Source: Chloroflexota bacterium (GTDB lineage Bacteria > Chloroflexota > UBA6077 > FW602-bin22 > CADDYW01). Taken from it: a DNA stretch of 64,000 nt. Positions within the stretch are counted from its first letter, which is position 1, and each line of letters starts with the position of its first letter. Below, one piece after another: positions 6,691-57,804 of this stretch. Both the position numbers and the translations under genes were made by a program. The stretch covers positions 1 to 64,000 of the forward strand of contig CADDYW010000004.1 of assembly GCA_902810745.1 (NCBI GenBank), given 5' to 3'. Below the pieces are notes generated by a model, which had not been told where the DNA came from, searched no databases, and saw nothing but the letters and a program-made list of their open reading frames with translations.

Positions 6691-7590
6691 GTGCGCTGGA
6701 TCGAGCTCAGCTCACGCGTCGACGGTGAGGCGGTCGAGGCGGTTAGCGAGGTCTTCACCCGCCTGGCGACCGGTGGGGTGGTCGTCGAGCCAGATCTGGT
6801 CCCGGGAGTGGACGATGGCTTTGCGCTGGGCAGGCTAGCATCCGTCCGTGCCTACATTCCCCTCGACGCCCAGGCAGCCGGCAAGGCACGCGCCCTCGAG
6901 GAAGCGCTCTGGCACCTACGAAGCATCTGGCCGGTGGGGGAGCTCGAGCAGCGCGAGGTCGACGAAGAGGACTGGGCGCACGCCTGGAAGAAGCACTATT
7001 CGACGTTCCGGATCGGCTCGCGCATCGTGATCCGCCCGTCCTGGCTCGACTATCAGCCATCTGACGCTGATGTCGTGATCTCCCTTGACCCGGGCGCGGC
7101 GTTTGGCACCGGTCTCCACCCGACGACGCGTCGCTGTGTCGAGCTTCTCGAGCAGATCGTGAGACCAGGTAGCCGTGTCCTCGACGTCGGGACCGGCTCG
7201 GGCATTCTCGCCCTGGCTGCGGTAGGGCTGGGCGCGGAGCGGATCGTGGCGGTCGACGTCGATCCGATCGCCGTGGATGCCGCGCGCAGCAACGTGCATC
7301 TGAATCAGGCAGACGATCGGGTCGAAGTCCTCCAGGGCAGCATTGACGCCGTCCGAGCGGGCGAGACATTCGACGTCGTCGTCGCCAACATCATCGCGCG
7401 AGTCATCCTGGAGCTGGCACCGCGCCTGACCGAGCGCGTTCGGCACGGAGGATTCCTGCTCGTCGGCGGCATCATCGACGAGCGAGCTGACGAGGTGGCG
7501 GCGTCGCTGGAGCGACTCGGGCTGGTGCTAGACCGGTACGTCGATGATGACTGGATCACACTCCTTGGTCGTTTCCCTGGGTCTGCCTGA
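6691..7590 (+). CDS. prmA: Ribosomal protein L11 methyltransferase
   Basis: A 299-residue SAM-dependent enzyme that trimethylates ribosomal protein L11. The N-terminal L11-binding domain is followed by the methyltransferase core: AFGTGLHPTTR, then DVGTGSGILALAA (motif I) and VVVANIIARVI, which replaces the NPP-type motif as in other PrmA proteins. The GTG at 6691 sits 4 bases after the dnaJ stop with GGAGAG upstream; the frame is open to a TTG at 6652 inside dnaJ, which was not preferred. Confidence 0.93.
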   Translation: MRWIELSSRVDGEAVEAVSEVFTRLATGGVVVEPDLVPGVDDGFALGRLASVRAYIPLDAQAAGKARALEEALWHLRSIWPVGELEQREVDEEDWAHAWKKHYSTFRIGSRIVIRPSWLDYQPSDADVVISLDPGAAFGTGLHPTTRRCVELLEQIVRPGSRVLDVGTGSGILALAAVGLGAERIVAVDVDPIAVDAARSNVHLNQADDRVEVLQGSIDAVRAGETFDVVVANIIARVILELAPRLTERVRHGGFLLVGGIIDERADEVAASLERLGLVLDRYVDDDWITLLGRFPGSA

Positions 7591-7591
7591 C

Positions 7592-8344
7592 GTGCATCGC
7601 TTCTTCGTCTCCCCGGAACGCCTGGCCCACGGGAAGGTCGAGTTTACCCCGGAGCAATCACGCCAGCTCGCAACGGTTCTTCGGGCGCGGCCCGGAGAAC
7701 ACGTGATCGTGCTCGATAACGGGGGCTGGATGTACGACGTGGAGCTCGCCGCCGTCTCGCCCGAAACCACGAGCGGTATCATCTGCTCGCGGCGCCTCGC
7801 ACCCAACGAGCCGCGGACAAAGCTGACACTCTATCCGGCGCTGCTGAAATCGGATAAGCTAGAGCTCGTACTGCAGAAATGCACGGAGATTGGAGCCAGC
7901 GGCTTCGCGCCGGTGATCAGTAATCGATGCAATGTCGGAACAATCGTTTCTGAAAACCGCCGTCAGCGCTGGGAGCGCATCATCGTCGAGGCAGCCGAGC
8001 AGAGCGAGCGCGGACGCCTTCCTCAGCTGCACCCGGCGATACTTTTTCCGCAGGCGTGCGAGCACGTGCGAGGTCGGGGGCTATCCTTCATCGCCTGGGA
8101 AAGGGGAGAGCGCCAGGGACTTCGATCTGTCCTCGTCGAGCGCCTGAAGTCCGGGGCGAGTGCGCGTCCTTTCGCGATGAATCTTTTTCTGGGCCCCGAG
8201 GGGGGATTCACCGAGGACGAGATCGAGATGGCGCGCTCGTACGGTATCATACCCGTCAGTCTCGGTCCGCGTATCTTGCGCGCGGAAACCGCGGCGATCG
8301 TCGGTACGACGCTGATCATGGCGGAGACCGGAGACCTGGAGTAA
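7592..8344 (+). CDS. rsmE: 16S rRNA (uracil1498-N3)-methyltransferase
   Basis: A 250-residue SPOUT-family methyltransferase. It begins VHRFFVSPERL, the usual RsmE start. An N-terminal PUA-like domain is followed by the knotted SAM-binding domain with LQKCTEIGASGFAPV, NLFLGPEGGFTEDEI and a final LGPRILRAETA block, all hallmarks of the family. The frame is open upstream to an ATG at 7544 inside prmA, but the GTG at 7592, one base after the prmA stop, gives the family-typical start; the ribosome site is weak for both. Confidence 0.92.
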   Translation: MHRFFVSPERLAHGKVEFTPEQSRQLATVLRARPGEHVIVLDNGGWMYDVELAAVSPETTSGIICSRRLAPNEPRTKLTLYPALLKSDKLELVLQKCTEIGASGFAPVISNRCNVGTIVSENRRQRWERIIVEAAEQSERGRLPQLHPAILFPQACEHVRGRGLSFIAWERGERQGLRSVLVERLKSGASARPFAMNLFLGPEGGFTEDEIEMARSYGIIPVSLGPRILRAETAAIVGTTLIMAETGDLE

Positions 8345-8351
8345 GACAGCA

Positions 8352-9713
8352 ATGAGCCATCGATCGAACCGGACCGTCGCCCTGACGACGCTGGGCTGCA
8401 AGGTGAATCAGGCCGATTCTGACGAGTGGCTGCGCCAGTTCAGCGCCCGCGGCTACGACATCGTCGACTTCGACTCGGTCGCGGATGTGTACATTGTCAA
8501 CACCTGCACGGTGACGCACGTCGCCGATCGGAAGTCGCGCCAGCTCCTGCGCCACGCGCGGCGTCAGAACCCCGCCGGGCTCGTCGTGGCCACCGGCTGT
8601 TATGCTTCGGTCGCCCCGGATGAGCTGGCGCGAATGGTCGAGGTCGATCTGATCATCGGAGATAAGGATAAGCCGCGACTCGTCGAGCTGGTCCACGACG
8701 CTCTCGAAGGCGACGAGGAGCAGCCGCTCGAGGCACTGGCGGGAGCGCTCCGCGTCTTCGGCCCGCGCCACCGAGCTTTCGTGAAAATCTCCGATGGCTG
8801 CAACAAGTTCTGCGCCTTCTGCATCGTGCCGTACGCGCGAGGGCGCACCCGCAGCGTCGATCCTGACCTGATCCTCCAACGCGTTCACTCGCTCGTCGCC
8901 GGCGGCTATCGGGAGATCGTCCTGACCGCTGTCCACATGGGGAATTACGGGCAGGATCTCAATCCGCGCACGACGCTACGTCAGCTCATTCAGCGGATTC
9001 TCGACGAGACAGCGGTGGAGCGGTTGCGTATCTCGTCCATTGAACCCGAGGACTTCGATGAAAATCTGCTCTCTCTCTGGAGCAACCGTCGACTGTGTCG
9101 TCACTTTCATCTCGCGCTCGACAGCGGCTGCGATACGACCTTGCGTCGCATGCGGCGTCGCTATCAGACCGCGGACTTTCGTCGGCTCGTCTCCCGTATT
9201 CGGGACGCCGTTCCCGACGTCGCGATCACCACGGACGTGATCGTCGGCTTTCCCGGCGAGACTGACGAGGAGTACGCTGCCAGTCGTGAGTTCGTCGAAT
9301 CGCTGGAGTTCGCGCAGATTCACGTCTTTCCGTACTCGCCGCGCCGTCACACTGTCGCGGCCAGGCTTCCGAACCAGGTCGATCCCGAGACGAAGCACCG
9401 CCGGACCGAAGATATGCTCGCGATCGCCGAGGCAAGTGCTCGGAGTTTCCGCGAACAGTTCGTGGGACGTTCTCTCGCCGTGCTGTTCGAGGGACTGTCG
9501 CCACCCATCGACAACGAGCGGCTGTGGGAGGGATTGACGGATAACTACCTGCGCGTCCGTGTCCCGTGCACGGATAACCTGACGAACGCCATCGTCGACG
9601 TCCAGCTTGATCGTGCGACGACGGATGGTATGATCGGTCACGTAGTGGGACCAGTCTCGGTGGGGACGCCGATCCCAGTGAGACCGCTGACGCTGACTTC
9701 GGCCAGCCGCTGA
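8352..9713 (+). CDS. mtaB: tRNA t6A37 methylthiotransferase (radical SAM)
   Basis: A 453-residue radical-SAM methylthiotransferase. The N-terminal UPF0004 domain starts TTLGCKVNQADSD, includes NTCTVTHVADRKSRQ and ATGCYA, and carries the auxiliary-cluster cysteines. The radical-SAM motif is CNKFCAFCIVP (CxxxCxxC). A TRAM-like RNA-binding tail follows. The 'CKVNQxDS' start is typical of MtaB, which makes ms2t6A on tRNAs reading ANN codons, as opposed to MiaB or RimO. It starts 8 bases after rsmE. Confidence 0.92.
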   Translation: MSHRSNRTVALTTLGCKVNQADSDEWLRQFSARGYDIVDFDSVADVYIVNTCTVTHVADRKSRQLLRHARRQNPAGLVVATGCYASVAPDELARMVEVDLIIGDKDKPRLVELVHDALEGDEEQPLEALAGALRVFGPRHRAFVKISDGCNKFCAFCIVPYARGRTRSVDPDLILQRVHSLVAGGYREIVLTAVHMGNYGQDLNPRTTLRQLIQRILDETAVERLRISSIEPEDFDENLLSLWSNRRLCRHFHLALDSGCDTTLRRMRRRYQTADFRRLVSRIRDAVPDVAITTDVIVGFPGETDEEYAASREFVESLEFAQIHVFPYSPRRHTVAARLPNQVDPETKHRRTEDMLAIAEASARSFREQFVGRSLAVLFEGLSPPIDNERLWEGLTDNYLRVRVPCTDNLTNAIVDVQLDRATTDGMIGHVVGPVSVGTPIPVRPLTLTSASR

Positions 9714-45493: not shown

Positions 45494-46335
45494 CTGCCGC
45501 GCCCGCGCCAATAGACTACGTCTCGCGCTGGCGTCGTCTCGTCGAAGCGCGCCACGAGCAGGGAAGGCGACTCGATCGATTCCACGACCGTCCGGACCAA
45601 TGGGCCGACGGGCGAGCGGCGCGCTTTCGTCGGATGGTGACCGCCTCTGCCGCTGCCGATCCACTACTCGATCTCCTCCGTCCCCTGCTCCGCCGCGATC
45701 TGACCGTTCTCGACGTGGGAGCGGGGACCGGCCGCCACGTCATACCGCTCGCGCCGATGGTCTCCCGAATTACCGCGATAGAGCCATCGCCCGCGATGCG
45801 CGCGGAGCTGGAAGCGGCCGTCAAGGACGCGCGGGCGACGAACGTCGAGATTGTCGCCTCGAGCTGGCCCAACGTCGATGTCGAGCCTGCGGATCTCGTG
45901 ATCTGCTCCCACGTCGCGTACGTCGTCGCGGACATCGAACCATTCCTCCGTCGCCTCGATGCGGCGAATCGGGGGCGGTGCGTCGTCGTCCTCCGCTACC
46001 TGCAGCGGGAGACGGCGATTCTCGACCTGTTTGAACGGATCTGGAACGAGCCACGCTGCCCGGAGCCGACGTTCCCCGACCTCTTCGGTGCAGCCTGCCA
46101 GCTTGGGATCTGGGCAAACGTCGTCAACATCCCCTTCACCGTTGCGCAAAGCTTCGATTCGCTCGACGAGGCGGTGCAGATGGTCAAGCGCGACCTGCTC
46201 AATCCCGAAGGTCCGGCAGTCGACCGAGTGATTCGGGATTTCCTGGCAGAGCGGCTGGTGCGCCAGGAGGGAAGGTGGCAGCTCCGCACACCTCCAGCGG
46301 TCGCGGGTGTCCTCTGGTGGGAGAGAAGGTCCTGA
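45481..46335 (+). CDS. SAM-dependent methyltransferase, substrate unknown
   Basis: A 284-residue class I methyltransferase. Motif I is VLDVGAGTGRHVIPLAP, followed by ITAIEPSPAM; PADLVICSHVAYVVADIEPFLRRLDAA corresponds to motifs IV-V. It overlaps the PHP gene by 13 bases, and its stop overlaps the UPF0182 start (TGATG), so the three are co-transcribed and probably translationally coupled. GAGGAGTC is the ribosome site. Confidence 0.85.
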   Translation: MEPVTAAPAPIDYVSRWRRLVEARHEQGRRLDRFHDRPDQWADGRAARFRRMVTASAAADPLLDLLRPLLRRDLTVLDVGAGTGRHVIPLAPMVSRITAIEPSPAMRAELEAAVKDARATNVEIVASSWPNVDVEPADLVICSHVAYVVADIEPFLRRLDAANRGRCVVVLRYLQRETAILDLFERIWNEPRCPEPTFPDLFGAACQLGIWANVVNIPFTVAQSFDSLDEAVQMVKRDLLNPEGPAVDRVIRDFLAERLVRQEGRWQLRTPPAVAGVLWWERRS

Positions 46336-49136
46336 TGTGGATCGTCCTGCTCATCGTCCTCGGGTTGATCGTCTTCGTTGCGATCCCAGCGGCCGCGAGC
46401 TTCTACACTGAGTGGCTCTGGTTCCAGAGTGTGGGTCAATCGGCGGTCTTCCTGACGGTCATCGGGGCGAAGATCACCCTCTTTGCCCTGGGAGCGGGTG
46501 TCTTTCTCGCCCTGGCAATGCTCAACCTCCTGATCGCACGATTTATCGCTCGGCGAATTGGCGAGCTCCCGCTACCCCGCGAGGGTGTGCTGACGTACAT
46601 CACCCGCATGAAGGCAAACGCCGTCGACCGGGTGGTGACGTACAGCGCCCTGGCCTGCTCACTCGTACTGGCAGCAATCATGGGCCTCGTCGTCTCGTCT
46701 CGATGGCTGATGTTCGAGCAGTTTCTGAACCCCTCGCGATTCGGCGTTCGGGACCCCCTGTTCGGCCTTGACGTATCTTTCTTTGTCTTCGATCTTCCGA
46801 CCTACCATTTTCTTCAAACGTGGCTTCTCGTGTCGGCGATCCTGGTCGCCTTGCTCACTGGTGCGTATTACGTCGTCCGTTCGTACGGGTTCAGCTTCGA
46901 AGCATCGGACCTCGCTGCGCTGGCCTCCGTTCCCGGCGTGCGCATTCATCTGTTCAGCCTGCTGGCGCTGGTGCCGTTACTTCTTGCCGTGGGCTATCGG
47001 CTCGACGTCTATGATCTCGTCTACGCACACCGGGGAGTTGTTCACGGCGCTGGCTACGCGGACGTCCACGCTCAGCTCCCCGCCCTCACCCTCCTCGGCG
47101 CCGTGGCGCTTGCCATGGCGGTAGCGTTCCTCGTCAATGCATTCCGACGCGGATTTGGACTGGCGGGGGTCGCGGTTGCCGCGTGGATCCTGGCGGCTAT
47201 TCTTGTCGGGAGTGCCTACCCAGCACTAGTACAGCAGTACGAGGTCCGGCCGAGCGAGCTCCTGCGCGAGTCGCCTTACCTGAAGGACAATATCACGATG
47301 ACGCGGCGCGCGTTCGGCCTGGATAACGTCGACACTGAGCCGTTTCCCGGCCAGCCCGAGCCAAAGCCTGGTGTCGTTCAACGCAATCCACAAACCTTCG
47401 ACAGCATTCGTCTGTGGGACTACCGGCCCCTCCTGTCGACCTACTCTCAGATCCAAACTATCCGTCTGTACTACGACTTCAACGACGTCGACATCGATCG
47501 ATATACGATCAATGGTAAATATCAGCAGGTCATGCTGAGTGCTCGCGAACTCTCGCCGAACAAGCTGGCGTCCCAGGCGAAGACCTGGGTCACTCAACGC
47601 CTCCAGTTCACCCACGGTTATGGCCTGGCGATGAGTCCGGTGAACGAGGTGACGTCTCAGGGACTACCCGATCTGATCATCAAGGACATTCCTCCGGTCG
47701 GAAGTATCCCGGTGACGCGGCCGGAGATCTATTTTGGCGAGACCGACGCGGGCTACGTGATCGTCGATACCAGCGCGCCAGAGTTCGATTATCCGCAGGG
47801 TAACCAGAATGTCTACCAATCCTACCAGGGAACCGGCGGTGTCCTGCTTGACTCTTTGCTCCGGAAGCTCGCTTTCGCCATTCACTACGAGGATCCAAAC
47901 ATCCTCCTGAGTACCTACATCCTGCCGCAGAGCCGAATCATCTATCATCGGCAGATCGCCGACCGCGCGGGCCGTCTCGTTCCATTTCTGAGCCTGGACT
48001 CGGATCCGTACCTCGTCGTCTCGAATGGACAGCTGTACTGGTTCCAGGACGCGTATACCACCACGGACAGCTACCCGTATTCGACGCCGTACGATGAGCG
48101 TTTCAACTACATCCGCAACTCGGTGAAGATCGTCACCAGCGCGTACGATGGGAGTGTACATCTGTACGTCGCCGATCCTTCCGATCCTCTCGTCCAGACC
48201 TACGCGAAGATCTTCCCGACGCTCTTCACGCCGATATCGGCGATGCCGCCGGATCTGCGCAAGCACGTTCGTTATCCCGAGGACCTGTTTCTCGTACAGG
48301 CGGATATGCTTCGTGCCTACCACATGCAGGATCCTCAAGTCTTCTACAACCGGGAGGACATGTGGGATCTGCCGGAGGAAGGTACCACGGATGGCCAGCA
48401 AGCGCTCCAGCCTTACTATGTGATCATGCGGCTTCCAAATGCCGAGACTGAAGAGTTCTTGCTGATGCTCCCGTTTACCCCGCAGGGCAAGAAGAATATG
48501 GTCGCGTGGCTCGCGGCCAAATCAGATGGCGCCGACTACGGGAAGATGCTCCTCTTCGAATTTCCGAAGGACCGGGTGATTTTTGGGCCGCAGCAGGTAG
48601 AGTCTCGTATCGACGCGGAGCCGAGTATCTCCGCGCAGCTGAGCCTCTGGAACCAGGAAGGATCGAAGGTGATCCGAGGGAACCTCCTCGTCCTGCCCAT
48701 CGAGGACTCGGTCCTTTACGTGGAGCCACTCTACCTGCAAGCAAATCAAAGCCAGATACCCGAGCTCAAGCGAGTGATCCTCGCCACGCAAGATAAGCTG
48801 GTCATGAGCGAGACACTCCAGGATGCTCTGACCGCGATATTCGGAAACGGAACGACGCAGCAATCTGGCACTGCCTCGGGGACGACACCAATCGTCCCCA
48901 CGCTCCCCGGGCCAACCCCGACGCCCGCTCCAGCGGCCGGGGCTACGGCAGCCACTGGTCCGGCTTCACCGCAATCGGTGGCCGAGCTGGCCCGCTCCGC
49001 GAATGACCACTATCAGAAGGCCCAGGCTGCGCTCAAGGTCGGCGACTGGGCGAGCTACGGGCGCGAGCAAGCCGCGCTGGCCGACGATCTGCAGAAGCTG
49101 CTCGCTGCGACGCAGGGCTCGCCCACCTCTCGGTAG
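46335..49136 (+). CDS. UPF0182-family membrane protein
   Basis: A 933-residue protein. About seven transmembrane segments occupy residues 1-300 (IVLLIVLGLIVFVAI at the very start, YTEWLWFQSVGQ next, a family landmark). The large part from about 310 to 830 is extracytoplasmic and beta-rich (VDTEPFPGQPEPKPG, LWDYRPLLSTYSQIQTIRLYYDF, GPQQVESRIDAEPSISAQLSLW). The C-terminal 100 residues have a Thr/Pro/Ala linker and a coiled helix. The role of this widespread family is unknown. The ATG at 46335 overlaps the previous stop. Confidence 0.92.
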   Translation: MWIVLLIVLGLIVFVAIPAAASFYTEWLWFQSVGQSAVFLTVIGAKITLFALGAGVFLALAMLNLLIARFIARRIGELPLPREGVLTYITRMKANAVDRVVTYSALACSLVLAAIMGLVVSSRWLMFEQFLNPSRFGVRDPLFGLDVSFFVFDLPTYHFLQTWLLVSAILVALLTGAYYVVRSYGFSFEASDLAALASVPGVRIHLFSLLALVPLLLAVGYRLDVYDLVYAHRGVVHGAGYADVHAQLPALTLLGAVALAMAVAFLVNAFRRGFGLAGVAVAAWILAAILVGSAYPALVQQYEVRPSELLRESPYLKDNITMTRRAFGLDNVDTEPFPGQPEPKPGVVQRNPQTFDSIRLWDYRPLLSTYSQIQTIRLYYDFNDVDIDRYTINGKYQQVMLSARELSPNKLASQAKTWVTQRLQFTHGYGLAMSPVNEVTSQGLPDLIIKDIPPVGSIPVTRPEIYFGETDAGYVIVDTSAPEFDYPQGNQNVYQSYQGTGGVLLDSLLRKLAFAIHYEDPNILLSTYILPQSRIIYHRQIADRAGRLVPFLSLDSDPYLVVSNGQLYWFQDAYTTTDSYPYSTPYDERFNYIRNSVKIVTSAYDGSVHLYVADPSDPLVQTYAKIFPTLFTPISAMPPDLRKHVRYPEDLFLVQADMLRAYHMQDPQVFYNREDMWDLPEEGTTDGQQALQPYYVIMRLPNAETEEFLLMLPFTPQGKKNMVAWLAAKSDGADYGKMLLFEFPKDRVIFGPQQVESRIDAEPSISAQLSLWNQEGSKVIRGNLLVLPIEDSVLYVEPLYLQANQSQIPELKRVILATQDKLVMSETLQDALTAIFGNGTTQQSGTASGTTPIVPTLPGPTPTPAPAAGATAATGPASPQSVAELARSANDHYQKAQAALKVGDWASYGREQAALADDLQKLLAATQGSPTSR

Positions 49137-49200: not shown

Positions 49201-49554
49201 ATGTTCATCACCACTGGCGTCGATCTGGTACGAGTCGACCGCCTGGCGGGTCTCGCAGCAAACGAGCGGTTCTTGCGGCGCGTGTTTGACACGTCCGAGC
49301 TCGACGATCCTCGACCAGCCCATCTCGCGGGCGTCTTCGCCTCGAAAGAAGCCGTCTTCAAGGCACTGAACGTCGCGCCTCGCTGGCAATCCGTCACGAT
49401 TGTACGCGGCACCGGCGGGCGTCCCCGGGTGCTGATCAGCACCTCGGTTCGCCCGCCTCGACTTCGGTCGGTCGACGTGTCGATCAGTCACGAAGGCGCA
49501 TTCGCCGTCGCCGTTGCCGTCGCGGTCTTCGATGATGAGGCCAGGCCGTCGTGA
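49201..49554 (+). CDS. acpS: Holo-ACP synthase (AcpS-type phosphopantetheinyl transferase)
   Basis: A 117-residue enzyme that puts the 4'-phosphopantetheine arm on acyl-carrier proteins. The magnesium/CoA residues are in TTGVDLVRVDRL and in FASKEAVFKALN, and VDVSISHEGAFAVAVAV ends the domain. It overlaps the following ligase-ACP-acyltransferase gene by 4 bases, so the fused ACP in that protein is its obvious substrate, in addition to any fatty-acid ACP. Confidence 0.92.
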   Translation: MFITTGVDLVRVDRLAGLAANERFLRRVFDTSELDDPRPAHLAGVFASKEAVFKALNVAPRWQSVTIVRGTGGRPRVLISTSVRPPRLRSVDVSISHEGAFAVAVAVAVFDDEARPS

Positions 49555-52013
49555 GCGGAACTCTCCAGAGCTTTATCCTCTCCCTCGACGTGTACCGCTA
49601 CCGTCCTGCCCTTCGACGTCGGACCGAGTTTCGGACCTTTACCTGGACGTACGCCGAGCTGCTGCGGCGCGTGCGCGCCATCGGTCTCTGGTTTGCGACC
49701 CAGGGCCTTACCCGTGGCGATCGCGTGCTGTTCTGGGCGCCGAACTCTCCCACGTGGGTCGGTGCTTTCCTGGCTTGTTTCGCAACAGGTCTGGTCCCGG
49801 TCCCCCTCGACCTGCACAGCACCTCGGACTTCATCCAGCTTGTCGCGAACGAGACCGGCGCCCGTCTGTTGCTGCGCGGGCGATACCAGCCACACGTCGC
49901 GGGCGCGCCGCGAGCGATCTTCGATGATGTCCTCGAATGGGAGACACGCCCGGGCCGGCCCGAGCTGACCACCTGGCCATCCATCAGCCCGGATGACCTG
50001 GCAGAGATCCTCTATACCTCGGGCACGACCGCCCAGCCCAAGGGCGTGATGCTGACACATCGAAACCTCCGTGCAAATATCGATCAGACTCAGCCGATCA
50101 TTCCGGTCGAACCGTACTACCGGCTCGTGTCTCTCCTGCCTCTCAGCCACTCGTTCGAGCAGATGGTGGGGCTCTTTCTCCCGATCAGCCGTGGTGGCCA
50201 GGTCACCTACCTGCAGACACTGACGCCGTCTGCCCTGAGCGATGCGCTGCACGAAGAGCAGCCGAACTTTCTCGTCGTGGTACCTCAGCTGCTCGACTTC
50301 CTGCGTTCGCGCGTCGAGAACAGACTGCCGGGACCGGTCCCTCGATTGCTCGCCGCGGCCATCCCACTGCTACTGATGCTCCCGCTCGCTACGCGCCGCG
50401 AGCTATCCGCCGTCCTTCGAGCGGGGATAGACGCGAGCCTGGACTACCTCGTCGTCGGGGGCGCCCCTCTGGATCGCTCCCTCGAGTGCTTCTGGGACGC
50501 GCTCGGTGTTCTCGTCCTGCAGGGCTATGGACTGACCGAGGCAGCGCCAGTCGTCACTGCAAACACCGTCGCGGAGCATCGGATAGGATCGGTAGGCAAG
50601 CCGCTCGCGGGCGTCGAAGTTCGACTCGGGCGAGACGGAGAGGTTCTCGTCAGGGGCCCGAACGTCACTCCCGGTTACTATCGCCGGCCCGAGGCGACCC
50701 GAGAAGCGTTCGTCGACGGCTGGCTCCGAACCGGGGATCTTGGCGAGTTCGACCGCGATGGCTTCCTTTATCTGCGAGGGCGCTCTAAGGACGTCATCGT
50801 GACGCCCGCCGGTCTCAAAGTCTATCCCGAGGATATCGAACGGGTGCTCAATCAGCAGCCTGGCGTGCGCGATAGCGCTGTCCTGGAATGGCGGAACGAG
50901 GTCTTCGCCGTCCTGCTGCTCGACCCCCTACGGCCTGTTCCACCACCGGAGATCATCGAACGCGCGAATCGCCAGCTCAATCCGATCCAGCGCATCCAGG
51001 GTTGGACCGTCTGGCCAGAAGCCGACTTTCCACGTACACCCACGCTCAAGGTGCGCAAGTTTCTCGTTCGAGAGGCGCTGGCCGCACACCTGCCGGCTCG
51101 AGCACCGGTCTCACGACCAGCCGGCCGCTTGGAGCAGATTGTTCAGGATCTTGCTCCGGACCGGAGGATCACGCCAGAGGCACGCCTCGGATCCGATCTC
51201 GGTCTGTCGTCGATTGATCGCCTCGAGCTTATCGCGCTCCTCGAAGAGGAGTTCCACGTCGATATCCCCGAGACAGACGTGACCGCGGAAACCACGGTCG
51301 CTGACCTCAAGCAGCTTGTCAGCGCGGGACGGCGCGAGAAGGTGCCTCGTCCTCCGACGTGGCCGCTTAAACCTATCGTTTCGAGGCTCCGCTCGTCCGC
51401 GCAGCAGCGTCTGATCTTTCCGCTGCTGCGACACGTGATCTGGCTCCGCGTCGAAGGTGCCGAGAATGTGTCTTCGTTGCACGGTCCGGTGATCTTCGCG
51501 GCCAACCACGCCAGCCTTCTCGACGGTCCGGCGTTACTGATGGCACTGCCCGCGCCCGTGAGAGAGAGGACCGCCATCGCGGCGCTGGCCGGCTTTTACT
51601 TCCCGCCCTCTCCAAGTGCTATCGTCAACGCGGCGCACTGGGCCCTATTCGATCTGGCGGCGTTGCTCTTCAACGTGTTTCCAGTGCCCCGATCGCGCGG
51701 ATTCCGCGAGAGTCTGCGATTTGCCGGTTTCCTCGTCGAGCACGGGTGGAATCTTCTAATCTTCCCCGAGGGGACTCGGAGCTGGACCGGAGAGCTGACG
51801 CCGTTTCGCGAAGGAATCGGGCTTCTTGCGAGCGAGCTCCAGGTGCCTGTCGTACCGGTGCGCATTCGCGGCACGCATCGCGTACTCCCACGGTCTGCCA
51901 TCATCCCAAGACCCGGCCCGGTGACGGTCCACTTCGGCCGGCCCCTGTGCTTTGCGCCGACGTCCTACTGGGAGATAACGCGCCAGATCGAAAAGGCGGT
52001 GGCCGAGCTTTAA
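49551..52013 (+). CDS. Fused AMP-dependent acyl ligase, ACP and PlsC-type acyltransferase
   Basis: An 820-residue three-domain protein. Residues about 1-500 are an adenylate-forming enzyme: ILYTSGTTAQPKGVMLTH (about 154-171), VLQGYGLTEAAP and TGDLGEFDRDGFLYLRGRSKD, with the catalytic-lysine-type VRKF at the end. Residues about 520-595 are an ACP-like domain with the likely phosphopantetheine site S554 in LGLSSIDRLELIALLEEEF. Residues about 620-820 form a 1-acylglycerol-phosphate-acyltransferase domain with NHASLLDG (H653, D658) and FPEGTRS. It should activate a fatty acid, load it on its own ACP and transfer it to a glycerolipid or similar acceptor. The GTG start overlaps acpS. Confidence 0.93.
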   Translation: MSGTLQSFILSLDVYRYRPALRRRTEFRTFTWTYAELLRRVRAIGLWFATQGLTRGDRVLFWAPNSPTWVGAFLACFATGLVPVPLDLHSTSDFIQLVANETGARLLLRGRYQPHVAGAPRAIFDDVLEWETRPGRPELTTWPSISPDDLAEILYTSGTTAQPKGVMLTHRNLRANIDQTQPIIPVEPYYRLVSLLPLSHSFEQMVGLFLPISRGGQVTYLQTLTPSALSDALHEEQPNFLVVVPQLLDFLRSRVENRLPGPVPRLLAAAIPLLLMLPLATRRELSAVLRAGIDASLDYLVVGGAPLDRSLECFWDALGVLVLQGYGLTEAAPVVTANTVAEHRIGSVGKPLAGVEVRLGRDGEVLVRGPNVTPGYYRRPEATREAFVDGWLRTGDLGEFDRDGFLYLRGRSKDVIVTPAGLKVYPEDIERVLNQQPGVRDSAVLEWRNEVFAVLLLDPLRPVPPPEIIERANRQLNPIQRIQGWTVWPEADFPRTPTLKVRKFLVREALAAHLPARAPVSRPAGRLEQIVQDLAPDRRITPEARLGSDLGLSSIDRLELIALLEEEFHVDIPETDVTAETTVADLKQLVSAGRREKVPRPPTWPLKPIVSRLRSSAQQRLIFPLLRHVIWLRVEGAENVSSLHGPVIFAANHASLLDGPALLMALPAPVRERTAIAALAGFYFPPSPSAIVNAAHWALFDLAALLFNVFPVPRSRGFRESLRFAGFLVEHGWNLLIFPEGTRSWTGELTPFREGIGLLASELQVPVVPVRIRGTHRVLPRSAIIPRPGPVTVHFGRPLCFAPTSYWEITRQIEKAVAEL

Positions 52014-53831: not shown

Positions 53832-54824
53832 ATGAGCTCGGGAATCACACGCGACATCGAATCCTTCCTCGATTTCTGCCTTGATCAGAATCGCTCCCGG
53901 AACACGGTCGCGACCTACCGTCAGATTCTGACCGACTTCGCGGACTGGTTGATCGAATCAGCGCCCGAGGTCAGCAACATCTCGGACGTGCGGCGCGAGC
54001 ATATCCAAGCATACGGACGGGCCCTGCGCCTCCGGTCGCGGGGAAACGGCGGCGAGCTGTCGGTCCGGACGCGCGCCAAGTACCTGGCGACGCTGCGTAG
54101 CCTGCTCCGGTACTTCTCGCGGGAGACCGACATCCCGGTTCTCGCGCGAGACAAGGTTACGCTCCCGCGGACCGGCGACTATCTGCCCCGGGCGGTGCCG
54201 ACACCGGAGGACGTACGACAGATGATCGAGGCCTGCCCGCGTGATACCTTCGTCGGGCGACGCGACCGGGCAATCCTGGCTCTGCTCTTCTCCGCCGGTC
54301 TGCGTATTGCCGAGCTGTGCTCCCTGGACCGTCGTCAAATACGCGAAGAGCGCCTCGGCACCGAGCCCATCATCGAGATCAGTATCGTCGGGAAGGGAAA
54401 GCACAGCCGCATCGTCTTTGTGAATTCCGAGGCGCAACGCTTTCTCAAGGACTACCTGGCGCTGCGTACCGATAACGACCCGGCCCTCTTCATCCACTCC
54501 CGGCCGGGAAAGCGGACCAGCCCGACGACCACGGCAAGCTTGCGTCTCACCCCACGTGCGATCCAGCGCATGGTCCGATCGGTCACGCTGAAGGTAGGAT
54601 TAGCCGACCGCCTCACGCCACACGCGCTTCGTCATGGATTCGCGGTCGATCTCCTGCGTGGGGGAGCCGATCTACGCACGGTTCAGGACCTGCTTGGCCA
54701 CCGGAGCGTCACGACCACTCAAATCTATACCCGACTTACCAATCGTACGCTGCTGGAAGGCTACCTGAAGCGGCGGTCATTACGGGACGGCGCGGACGAG
54801 AACTCTACCGGATCTGAATCGTAG
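53832..54824 (+). CDS. XerC/D-like tyrosine recombinase
   Basis: A 330-residue tyrosine recombinase. The N-terminal SAM-like core-binding domain (about 5-95) and the catalytic domain are present, with R158 in [12 protein letters not shown] in GKGKHSR, H264 and R267 in HALRHGFA, the [15 protein letters not shown] block and nucleophile Y299. The length and layout fit Xer proteins for chromosome-dimer resolution; Chloroflexota carry several such genes, so a mobile origin cannot be excluded. The start at 53832 is chosen by homology; the ribosome site is weak. Its 3' end overlaps the convergent transferase gene by 20 bases. Confidence 0.9.
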
Positions 54825-57804
54825 CAAGGAGAACCCGGTCCCCGCTGTCGTCGCCCGAGCGCGTGCGAACCGGAAGGCGTGAGCCCGTGCTGGAGTCATA
54901 CATGCCAACCTCGATTTGATACTGCCCGGGCGGTGCATCTGGCTTGATGGCCAGGTCGTAGCGATCGACGATGTACTCTCCGGGGACCCAGCCAGTTGTC
55001 GGGTCGCTGCCATCGCCGGGCTGATGGTCTTGCTGAGCCCAGATCGTACTGCGCTGATCTAGCAGGTGAGAAAACACGGTAAACCCAACGTCACCAGAAT
55101 TGCCAAGGGCTCTCCAGTAGAGTGTCAGGTGCAGATGATCGCCAGGGTGTGCCGTCTCCGTGTCGAGCGTGTAGCCGACCAGCTCCGCGAAGGTGCCGAT
55201 TCGCCAATCGAGCGGATGCGCAATATCCGGTGGTGGAGTCAGCAGGATTGGCCGGTTGCGCACTTGAACCGATCCGAGGTCCACTGCCGGGCCGTGTAGC
55301 GTGAGCGGTGAATTCCCTTCCGCTGGTGCCGCGAGCTGCAGCAAGATGTGCGTCTGCCCTGCTGGCGCGTCCGCCGGTACGACGAACCGGTGCTTGTCTT
55401 CGATTACCTCGCCACTAGTCCACTGGTCAGTCGGGAAATGACCGGCCCCGGGTGCCTCCACGAGCACTACCCGTCGATATCGACCGTTCTCCAGCGCGAT
55501 CTGGACGTCATATCGCGGAAGGCCCGCGCGTTGAGCCATCCACCAGAGGGTAACGTCGATGCTTCCCCCCGGCACCAGGCGGGGCGCCTCGACCGTCGAC
55601 CCGAGCAGCACGACGTCTCCCCCCAGTGTGATGTTCTGGCGGTGCGGAATATCGATACCAGATGGATCCACCACCTTGTGCGCGCGGGTCACGGTGAGCG
55701 GTACCACTTTGATCGACGTTCCGATCGGGGTTCTTGCGTCCTGCAAAACGTCGAGATCACTGCCGACTCCCTGGCCGTAGGTGCCCAGCTCCAGGAAGTA
55801 GGTACCCGGCGGAATGGCCGGTGGGACCTGGAAGGACAGCTCTCCCGGGACGACCTGGCCGGCAGGCCAGCTTGTCGTCGGATACGTCTCGGCGGCCGGG
55901 CGCCCATCGTGGCGCCAGTAGTAGAACCGACCGTCCGTCAGCCTCAGCGACACGATGTAGTCGTGGTCGAGCGGCCGCAATGCCTTCCAGTACAGCGTGA
56001 TATTGCCGGACTCGCCGGCGGCAATCGACGACTGCTTGAGGTCGTATCCGAGTAGTTCGAGGCGATTGCCGAAGTTGACAGTCTCGGCGTGATCGGGCGT
56101 CGATTTGACCGTGAAGTGGGGAGGATGATCGATCGCAAAGAGCTGAAGGCCGAGACCGTGGAACTGGCGATCGACCGGAATCTGCCGGTAGGTGCTTTCG
56201 AGCGAGCGGCGCACGTAACCCGTCGGATCGGCCCAGTCGGGATTCCAGAGGACCAGCCAGGCTCGCTTGTGCCCGGCCAGAATTGCGTTGAGGCTGTCCG
56301 CCGCCCCCTGAATATTGCTTCCGGGCTGCAGCTGCGTCGCCGGGATGGTCCCGTGAGAGTAATATGGAAACGAGAAGGGATCCATCATCAGGATGACCAC
56401 GTCTCCTGGCTGATAGTGCTGCTCAACGTAGGCGGTCAGGCCGCGATTATCTTCCTTGCGGTAGCTTGACCCGTAGTAGACCTGCCGGAGCTGGTCGAGC
56501 GATGCACCGGCAACCACGATCAGCATCGCGATCGGCAAGACAAGAGCACCGCGGCGAACCCAGGCACGTTCTCGGCGGTGGGCCCAGCGTCCAAGGTCCA
56601 CCACGCCGAGCGCCAGGGCAAGGTAGAACGGAGGCGCGATCATGATGAGATACCGCTCGGTGAACTTTGGGTTCTGTACGAGAATGGCATAGAGGGCGAT
56701 CAGCGGCACCACGAGGTAGGACAGGATGTAGAGCTCTCCACCGCCGCGACGGAACGCCCGACCCACGAGGAGGGCGATTCCGGCGCCCAGGAGAATCGCA
56801 GCGACTACCCCGACGATCAGGAAACGCTGCAGGATCGATCCCTGGCCCAATGCGAAGGCGGCGAAGACGTGCTCGAGCAGAAAGCCCAGCGATAGCTGAC
56901 CCTTCCAGAAATCGGGCACGTGGAACAGACGCTGCATCTGCAGGTACGCCGCCGGGACCCAGGGTAGCCAGAGCACCGCTGCCAGCGCCATGCCGGCAAT
57001 TCCACGAATGGCTCGGCGATGGTCCCGGATCGCGATGCCCACGAGGTAGAGCGCCTGGAATGCGATCACCAATCCGCCGAAATACTGCGTGTACAGGAGT
57101 GCAGCGGTGAAGGCGACGTAGCCCAGAAGCCATTGGCGGTGCACGGTTTCGAGCAATCGCCAGAGCGCGTACGTGGAGAGAACGCCAAACGTCGCAAGCG
57201 CGCTGTACATGCGGGCTTCCTGGGAGTAGTAGACCAGGAAAGGCGAGACCGCGACCAGAAAAGCGCCGATGACTCCGGTTGTCGCTCCGCGATCGAGGAG
57301 AAGGCCGCGAAGTGGCACCGCCAGGTCAGGATCCTGACCCCCCTGCACGACACGGAGAGGACGTGAAGCAGCGTGTGCGAGCGTTGCGGCCACCGGTGAT
57401 CTCGCTCCGGTGCTCCCGATCGGCGTGACCTCCGGCGATCGCCGCTCGCGCGGCGTAAAGACGGCCTTGCCAAGCACGTAGGTCGCGGGCACCGCGGGAA
57501 GACCAAGCCAGAGCGCAACAAAGCGCACGGCAAACTCACTCTCCCCGGCCAGTCTCATCCAGAAGTGCAGCAGCAGGTAAAAGAGGGGCGGGTGAAGATC
57601 CTCGTAGACGAGGGTCCAGAACATCTGCTGCAGCGGACGACCGGCAAACGAGATGCTCAAACCCTCGTCCAGCCAGATGCTCTGAACGCCAAGATGCCAG
57701 ACCCGCGCGGCAAAACCGACGAAGGTGAGGCTGAGGAGGATAAGGCGAAGCCCGGACCGAGCCGATCCCTTTTTCACTCCGCCCATGTCTCGCATCGACG
57801 CCAT
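54805..57804 (-). CDS. PMT/ArnT-like membrane glycosyltransferase with beta-sandwich tail
   Basis: A protein of about 999 residues. The first 530 residues contain about 12-13 transmembrane segments and the family start [19 protein letters not shown], with the catalytic Asp-Glu, and [16 protein letters not shown]. Such enzymes move sugars from lipid carriers to protein or lipid outside the membrane. The last 450 residues hold three similar beta-sandwich modules (each with LLGYDL/LYWKAL/PPGTY-like strings), probably for sugar or surface binding. The ATG at 57804 is 8 bases after a -10 box, so the message may be leaderless. Confidence 0.85.

Follow-up and report, generated by a model that had tools for sequence, protein, structure and literature searches.

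A divergent AcpS-type phosphopantetheinyl transferase co-inherited with an ElbD-like ligase-carrier-acyltransferase fusion in Chloroflexota

Two overlapping genes are encoded on the forward strand of the window, the stretch of 64,000 nucleotides from a Chloroflexota genome that was analysed here. The assignment to this phylum rests on gene content and on named Chloroflexi relatives detected by an alignment-based scan. The first gene (49201..49554, +) encodes an AcpS-type 4'-phosphopantetheinyl transferase (PPTase) of 117 residues that belongs to a divergent, ligase-linked subfamily, as indicated by the Pfam ACPS model PF01648 (33.6 bits against a cut-off of 25), an AlphaFold2 model with a pLDDT of 95.4, a Foldseek search whose top matches were all AcpS or PPT domains (for example 2wds and 2jbz, TM about 0.8), and its position in a tree. 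It scores below the cut-off of the NCBIfam acpS equivalog TIGR00516 (44.7 against 59.8 bits) and passes the broader domain model TIGR00556 (46.0 against 45.35). The second gene (49551..52013, +) begins with a GTG codon that shares the four bases GTGA (49551..49554, +) with the AcpS stop, and encodes an 820-residue fusion of an acyl-activating ligase, an acyl carrier and a PlsC acyltransferase, which is ElbD-like without the reductase domain (Pfam; AlphaFold2, pLDDT 88.3).

The AMP-forming acyl ligase domain occupies residues 1-513 (49551..51089, +), is matched by PF00501 at residues 19-377 with 236.7 bits and contains the P-loop YTSGTTAQPKG (155-165) and the A10 lysine K500; its best match is to long-chain acyl-CoA ligases. 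The acyl carrier domain follows at residues 526-592 (51126..51326, +; PF00550, 37.0 bits at 530-589), with the candidate phosphopantetheine serine S554 (51210..51212, +) in a GLSSID motif, and then the PlsC/AGPAT acyltransferase domain at residues 633-772 (51447..51866, +; PF01553, 58.3 bits), with both NHASLLD, of the NHxxxxD type, and FPEGTR. All three Pfam matches exceed their curated cut-offs, and the structural matches of the fusion in Foldseek are acyl-CoA ligases and NRPS adenylation-carrier modules. The carrier motif reads SSI, not DSL, the usual Asp before the Ser being absent. An alignment of 43 homologues from several phyla shows S554 and K500 to be invariant, together with much of the P-loop, and NHxxxxD and PEG to be nearly so, the domains overall being detected in 42 to 43 of them; S554 is also the first residue of a predicted helix (554-568). 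An earlier note, made from the sequence alone, had described these reading frames, the three domains and their acyltransferase motifs, the candidate serine, the upstream AcpS and the four-base overlap, and all of these were found as described.

The same note had regarded a carrier placed between a ligase and a PlsC domain as unusual, a view that did not survive, given that this is the layout of ElbD (PMC9131029). The ligase-carrier-PlsC architecture is already known, being that of the myxobacterial ElbD minus its N-terminal reductase, and a search of 400 Chloroflexota genomes found relatives of the fusion (E<1e-120) in 43. ElbD hits have been reported in 37 of 558 Chloroflexota MAGs from the Black Sea (PMC11868695), and a review of ElbD describes the FAR domain as missing from most of its homologues in other phyla (PMC9131029). 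A single-protein search of genome contigs gave no match to the fusion, while an alignment-based scan found named relatives in other phyla. In a quick tree of the ligase, whose deep branches are supported only roughly, the window fusion falls in a clade of seven members from one class (support 94), apart from the FAR-containing myxobacterial branch. Some variation was seen among the relatives. One genome of the window's class carries two ligase-carrier-acyltransferase genes in tandem (L071:2982-6248 and 6858-9629, on G024:C305), the first with a longer N-terminus (a frame of 1089 residues). In a branch formed by L014, L016, L161 and L086, FNYQGPY stands in place of NHxxxxD and SPEGN or SPEGE in place of FPEGTR, which may mean an inactive or altered third domain.

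The new part is the co-inherited, divergent AcpS beside this ElbD-like fusion. An AcpS gene adjoins the fusion in five genomes (the window's own, G002, G004, G019 and G023) and in no other tested genome with a relative; these five linked cases come from one small class whose genomes are fragmented assemblies. Homologues that always lack the carrier or the AcpS neighbour would have spoken against the earlier note, and a different pattern was found, the carrier being present in 42 of the 43 homologues and AcpS being linked in five of the seven members of the nearest clade. Among 52 AcpS of Chloroflexota, the five linked proteins form a single clade (support 100/99) on a stem of 1.05, and a profile built from them gives its own members 177-189 bits and the next AcpS 94 bits across the 400 Chloroflexota genomes, where it detected no unlinked copy of the subfamily. 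A start/stop overlap is present in 5/5 linked pairs, and the AcpS and ligase trees are congruent, with the groupings (G000,G002) and (G019,(G004,G023)), G000 being the window's genome. Co-inheritance and gene coupling are thus observed, and the persistent pair, its overlap and the congruent trees together constitute strong evidence, independent of annotation, that AcpS and the fusion are functionally coupled. Most Chloroflexota relatives of the fusion have no AcpS neighbour, and none was found within the flanks examined beside the named relatives from other phyla. Two genomes of the window's family, G001 and G003, contain the fusion with its SSID motif and lack the linked AcpS. The likeliest explanation is that they lost the AcpS gene, because it is retained in relatives outside the family.

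The surroundings of the pair are far less stable. Upstream of the fusion lie PHP, methyltransferase, UPF0182 and AcpS genes, and downstream are HbpS-like and HhH-GPD (MutY-like) genes. The PHP-methyltransferase-UPF0182 run, which the earlier note had counted with the pair, is indeed present and syntenic, but it is common only to the window's family and absent where genomes outside that family have kept AcpS and the ligase together; a functional link of these three genes to the pair was accordingly rejected, the synteny being at family level only, and they form no part of the unit. In G004, G019 and G023 the AcpS-fusion pair is kept and the other neighbours share nothing with those of the window. 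Some further features of these neighbourhoods were recorded. The UPF0182 protein (46275-49136; PF03699, 964 bits) is syntenic upstream within the family, and in G001 its gene is separated from the fusion by a PMT_2-type glycosyltransferase gene. A large membrane protein of 999 residues, with an N-terminus that looks glycosyltransferase-like by eye, is encoded on the minus strand at 54805-57804 and is conserved in G001, G002 and G003. In G004 the pair is flanked by a divergently oriented frame of 498 residues (L065:3267-4760) that matches both thioesterase (4HBT) and glycerophosphodiester phosphodiesterase.

The window's genome contains two PF00550 carriers, a free ACP (C113) and that of the fusion, and two AcpS genes, the linked copy and one (C22) between genes recognised by eye as gcvT-like and nnrD-like, which would suit a simple two-by-two pairing. 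A canonical housekeeping AcpS was not found in G002 or G023, and this points to assembly gaps, because nnrD, its neighbour, is missing there as well; for the same reason G002 was dropped as proof that the linked copy can be the sole AcpS. The window's genome also encodes a PlsC that stands alone (C11) as well as further acyl ligases, so the fusion unit would supplement ordinary phospholipid synthesis and not replace it.

The pair is probably a two-gene unit for transferring fatty acids to lipids, in which a dedicated AcpS primes the carrier. Every catalytic step is a prediction drawn from the enzyme families involved, and the acyl chain, the acceptor and an exclusive pairing are predictions as well. 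The linked AcpS would transfer phosphopantetheine from CoA onto S554, a free fatty acid would be adenylated by the ligase domain and loaded onto the internal carrier, and from there its acyl chain would be passed by the PlsC domain to a lipid acceptor, for example a lysophospholipid, glycerol phosphate or an ether-lipid precursor. The lysophospholipid named in the earlier note is a guess. The activation-carrier-transfer logic of that note agrees with the predicted domain functions, while its statement that no CoA is needed could apply at most to the catalytic cycle, because priming by AcpS consumes CoA, and the first domain may also have CoA ligase activity. According to this scheme, the linked AcpS would be a dedicated paralogue, and the free ACP that works in fatty acid synthesis would be served by a separate housekeeping AcpS.

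The residues through which AcpS and carrier meet bear on whether the pairing is exclusive. In Bacillus numbering, AcpS relies on catalytic Asp8, Glu58, Lys62 and a His, and also on Arg14, while Arg53 touches the 3'-phosphate of CoA (PMC3447402). The linked AcpS retain D8, R14, K49, E50, K54 and H97 (D8, E50, K54, H97 and R14 in 5/5), the Glu of GxDxxE is lost in 5/5, and the equivalent of Arg53 (position 45) is V or L in 5/5 against R in 15/15 other AcpS; their activity is therefore not certain, as the Arg for the CoA 3'-phosphate is lost. On the carrier side, the Asp before the Ser is found in 0/7 members of the fusion clade against 32/36 other homologues, and an acidic residue two places after the Ser in 7/7 against 5/36; both acidic positions contact Arg14 of AcpS in B. 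subtilis (PMC3447402). These substitutions look like a re-matching of enzyme and carrier. It is possible, albeit doubtful, that the linked AcpS serves as a private PPTase for the fused carrier and primes no other, both partners having been re-matched by the shift of the carrier acid and the loss of Glu and Arg. Should this be true, the cell could regulate the transfer of fatty acids to lipids independently of their synthesis, and CoA would perhaps be used differently. The missing Asp before S554 was rejected as a strict reason for a dedicated AcpS, given that Geobacter argillaceus and Acidobacteria share the lack without a linked AcpS, and the rule is further weakened by position 556, which is acidic in all seven clade members and may supply the contact instead.

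The alternative that survives best, though unlikely, is that the fusion is an ordinary lipid enzyme of the ElbD-like kind, with a carrier that any AcpS can prime; the AcpS next to it would then be a redundant second copy kept by linkage. G001 and G003 manage without a linked AcpS, an acidic residue 556 may preserve the Arg14 contact, and Geobacter argillaceus, whose carrier has a TSI motif, possesses one canonical AcpS only, so that an ordinary AcpS may suffice for this kind of carrier. A redundant copy is harder to reconcile with an AcpS that is divergent, has its own conserved residues and is never seen unlinked, or with a pair that survives complete neighbourhood turnover with its start/stop overlap.

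If confirmed, the dedicated AcpS and its fusion would represent a compact, portable two-gene system that incorporates free fatty acids into lipids, and they would offer a natural enzyme-carrier pair for the study of carrier choice by AcpS. In the literature searched, no AcpS-type PPTase reserved for a lipid acyltransferase fusion was found. The fusion would also be a tractable reductase-free member of the ElbD-like proteins, a group that currently serves as an ether-lipid marker, and could reveal what the ligase-carrier-PlsC core does alone.

Among known systems, ElbD shares the ligase-carrier-PlsC/AGPAT order with the window fusion. The M. xanthus protein has ACS and ACP activities in vitro, and acyltransferase activity of purified ElbD was undetected (PMC9131029). 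An ether-lipid enzyme of this kind, with a separate enzyme reducing the carrier-bound acyl group before transfer or etherification, would account for the domain order (PMC9131029), and ElbD hits do serve as a Chloroflexota ether-lipid marker (PMC11868695); it is nonetheless improbable, as the reductase domain and elb-type neighbours are both absent at the window locus and, according to PMC11868695, homologues do not imply ether lipids. ElbD sits in the elb operon, whereas the window fusion lacks elb neighbours (the HAD protein ElbB, the NAD epimerase ElbE), has a linked AcpS and has no N-terminal FAR-like reductase, its ligase match beginning at residue 19 of 820. The myxobacterial homologue L093 (about 1,467 residues) has an N-terminal NAD-binding reductase-like region, about 570 residues before its ligase, and aligns with the window fusion over all three domains at about 30% identity, on a separate deep branch. 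A PF07993 search for stand-alone fatty acyl reductases gave matches in 14/14 control genomes.

Aas (PRK06814/PRK08633) is likewise generally known to unite fatty acid activation and phospholipid acylation in one protein with ligase and PlsC domains, and the closeness of the window ligase to long-chain acyl-CoA ligases would suit a salvage enzyme that supplies free cytosolic ACP or CoA and uses those donors, yet so accessory a carrier is improbable, its Ser being invariant in 43 homologues and a private PPTase being pointless for an unused carrier. Aas has its domains in reversed order and is not known to have an internal carrier, and the NCBIfam Aas models give the fusion 174.3 and 173.6 bits against cut-offs of 1349 and 1221.

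Further parallels to the pair come from other biosynthetic clusters. In aryl polyene clusters, the acyl-ACP synthetase ApeH, the ACPs ApeE/F and the lysophospholipid acyltransferase ApeD are clustered, and for such systems a passage in PMC8253772, citing De Lay and Cronan 2006, describes a specialised PPTase, AcpT, that activates homologous carriers; these are separate proteins with a polyene product, while the window has one fused protein and no polyketide genes. Gra-ORF32 of granaticin biosynthesis (PMC9813960) is likewise a private PPTase whose gene accompanies that of its carrier, but it is of the Sfp type and belongs to a type II PKS cluster, whereas the window enzyme is of the AcpS type and stands beside a lipid enzyme.
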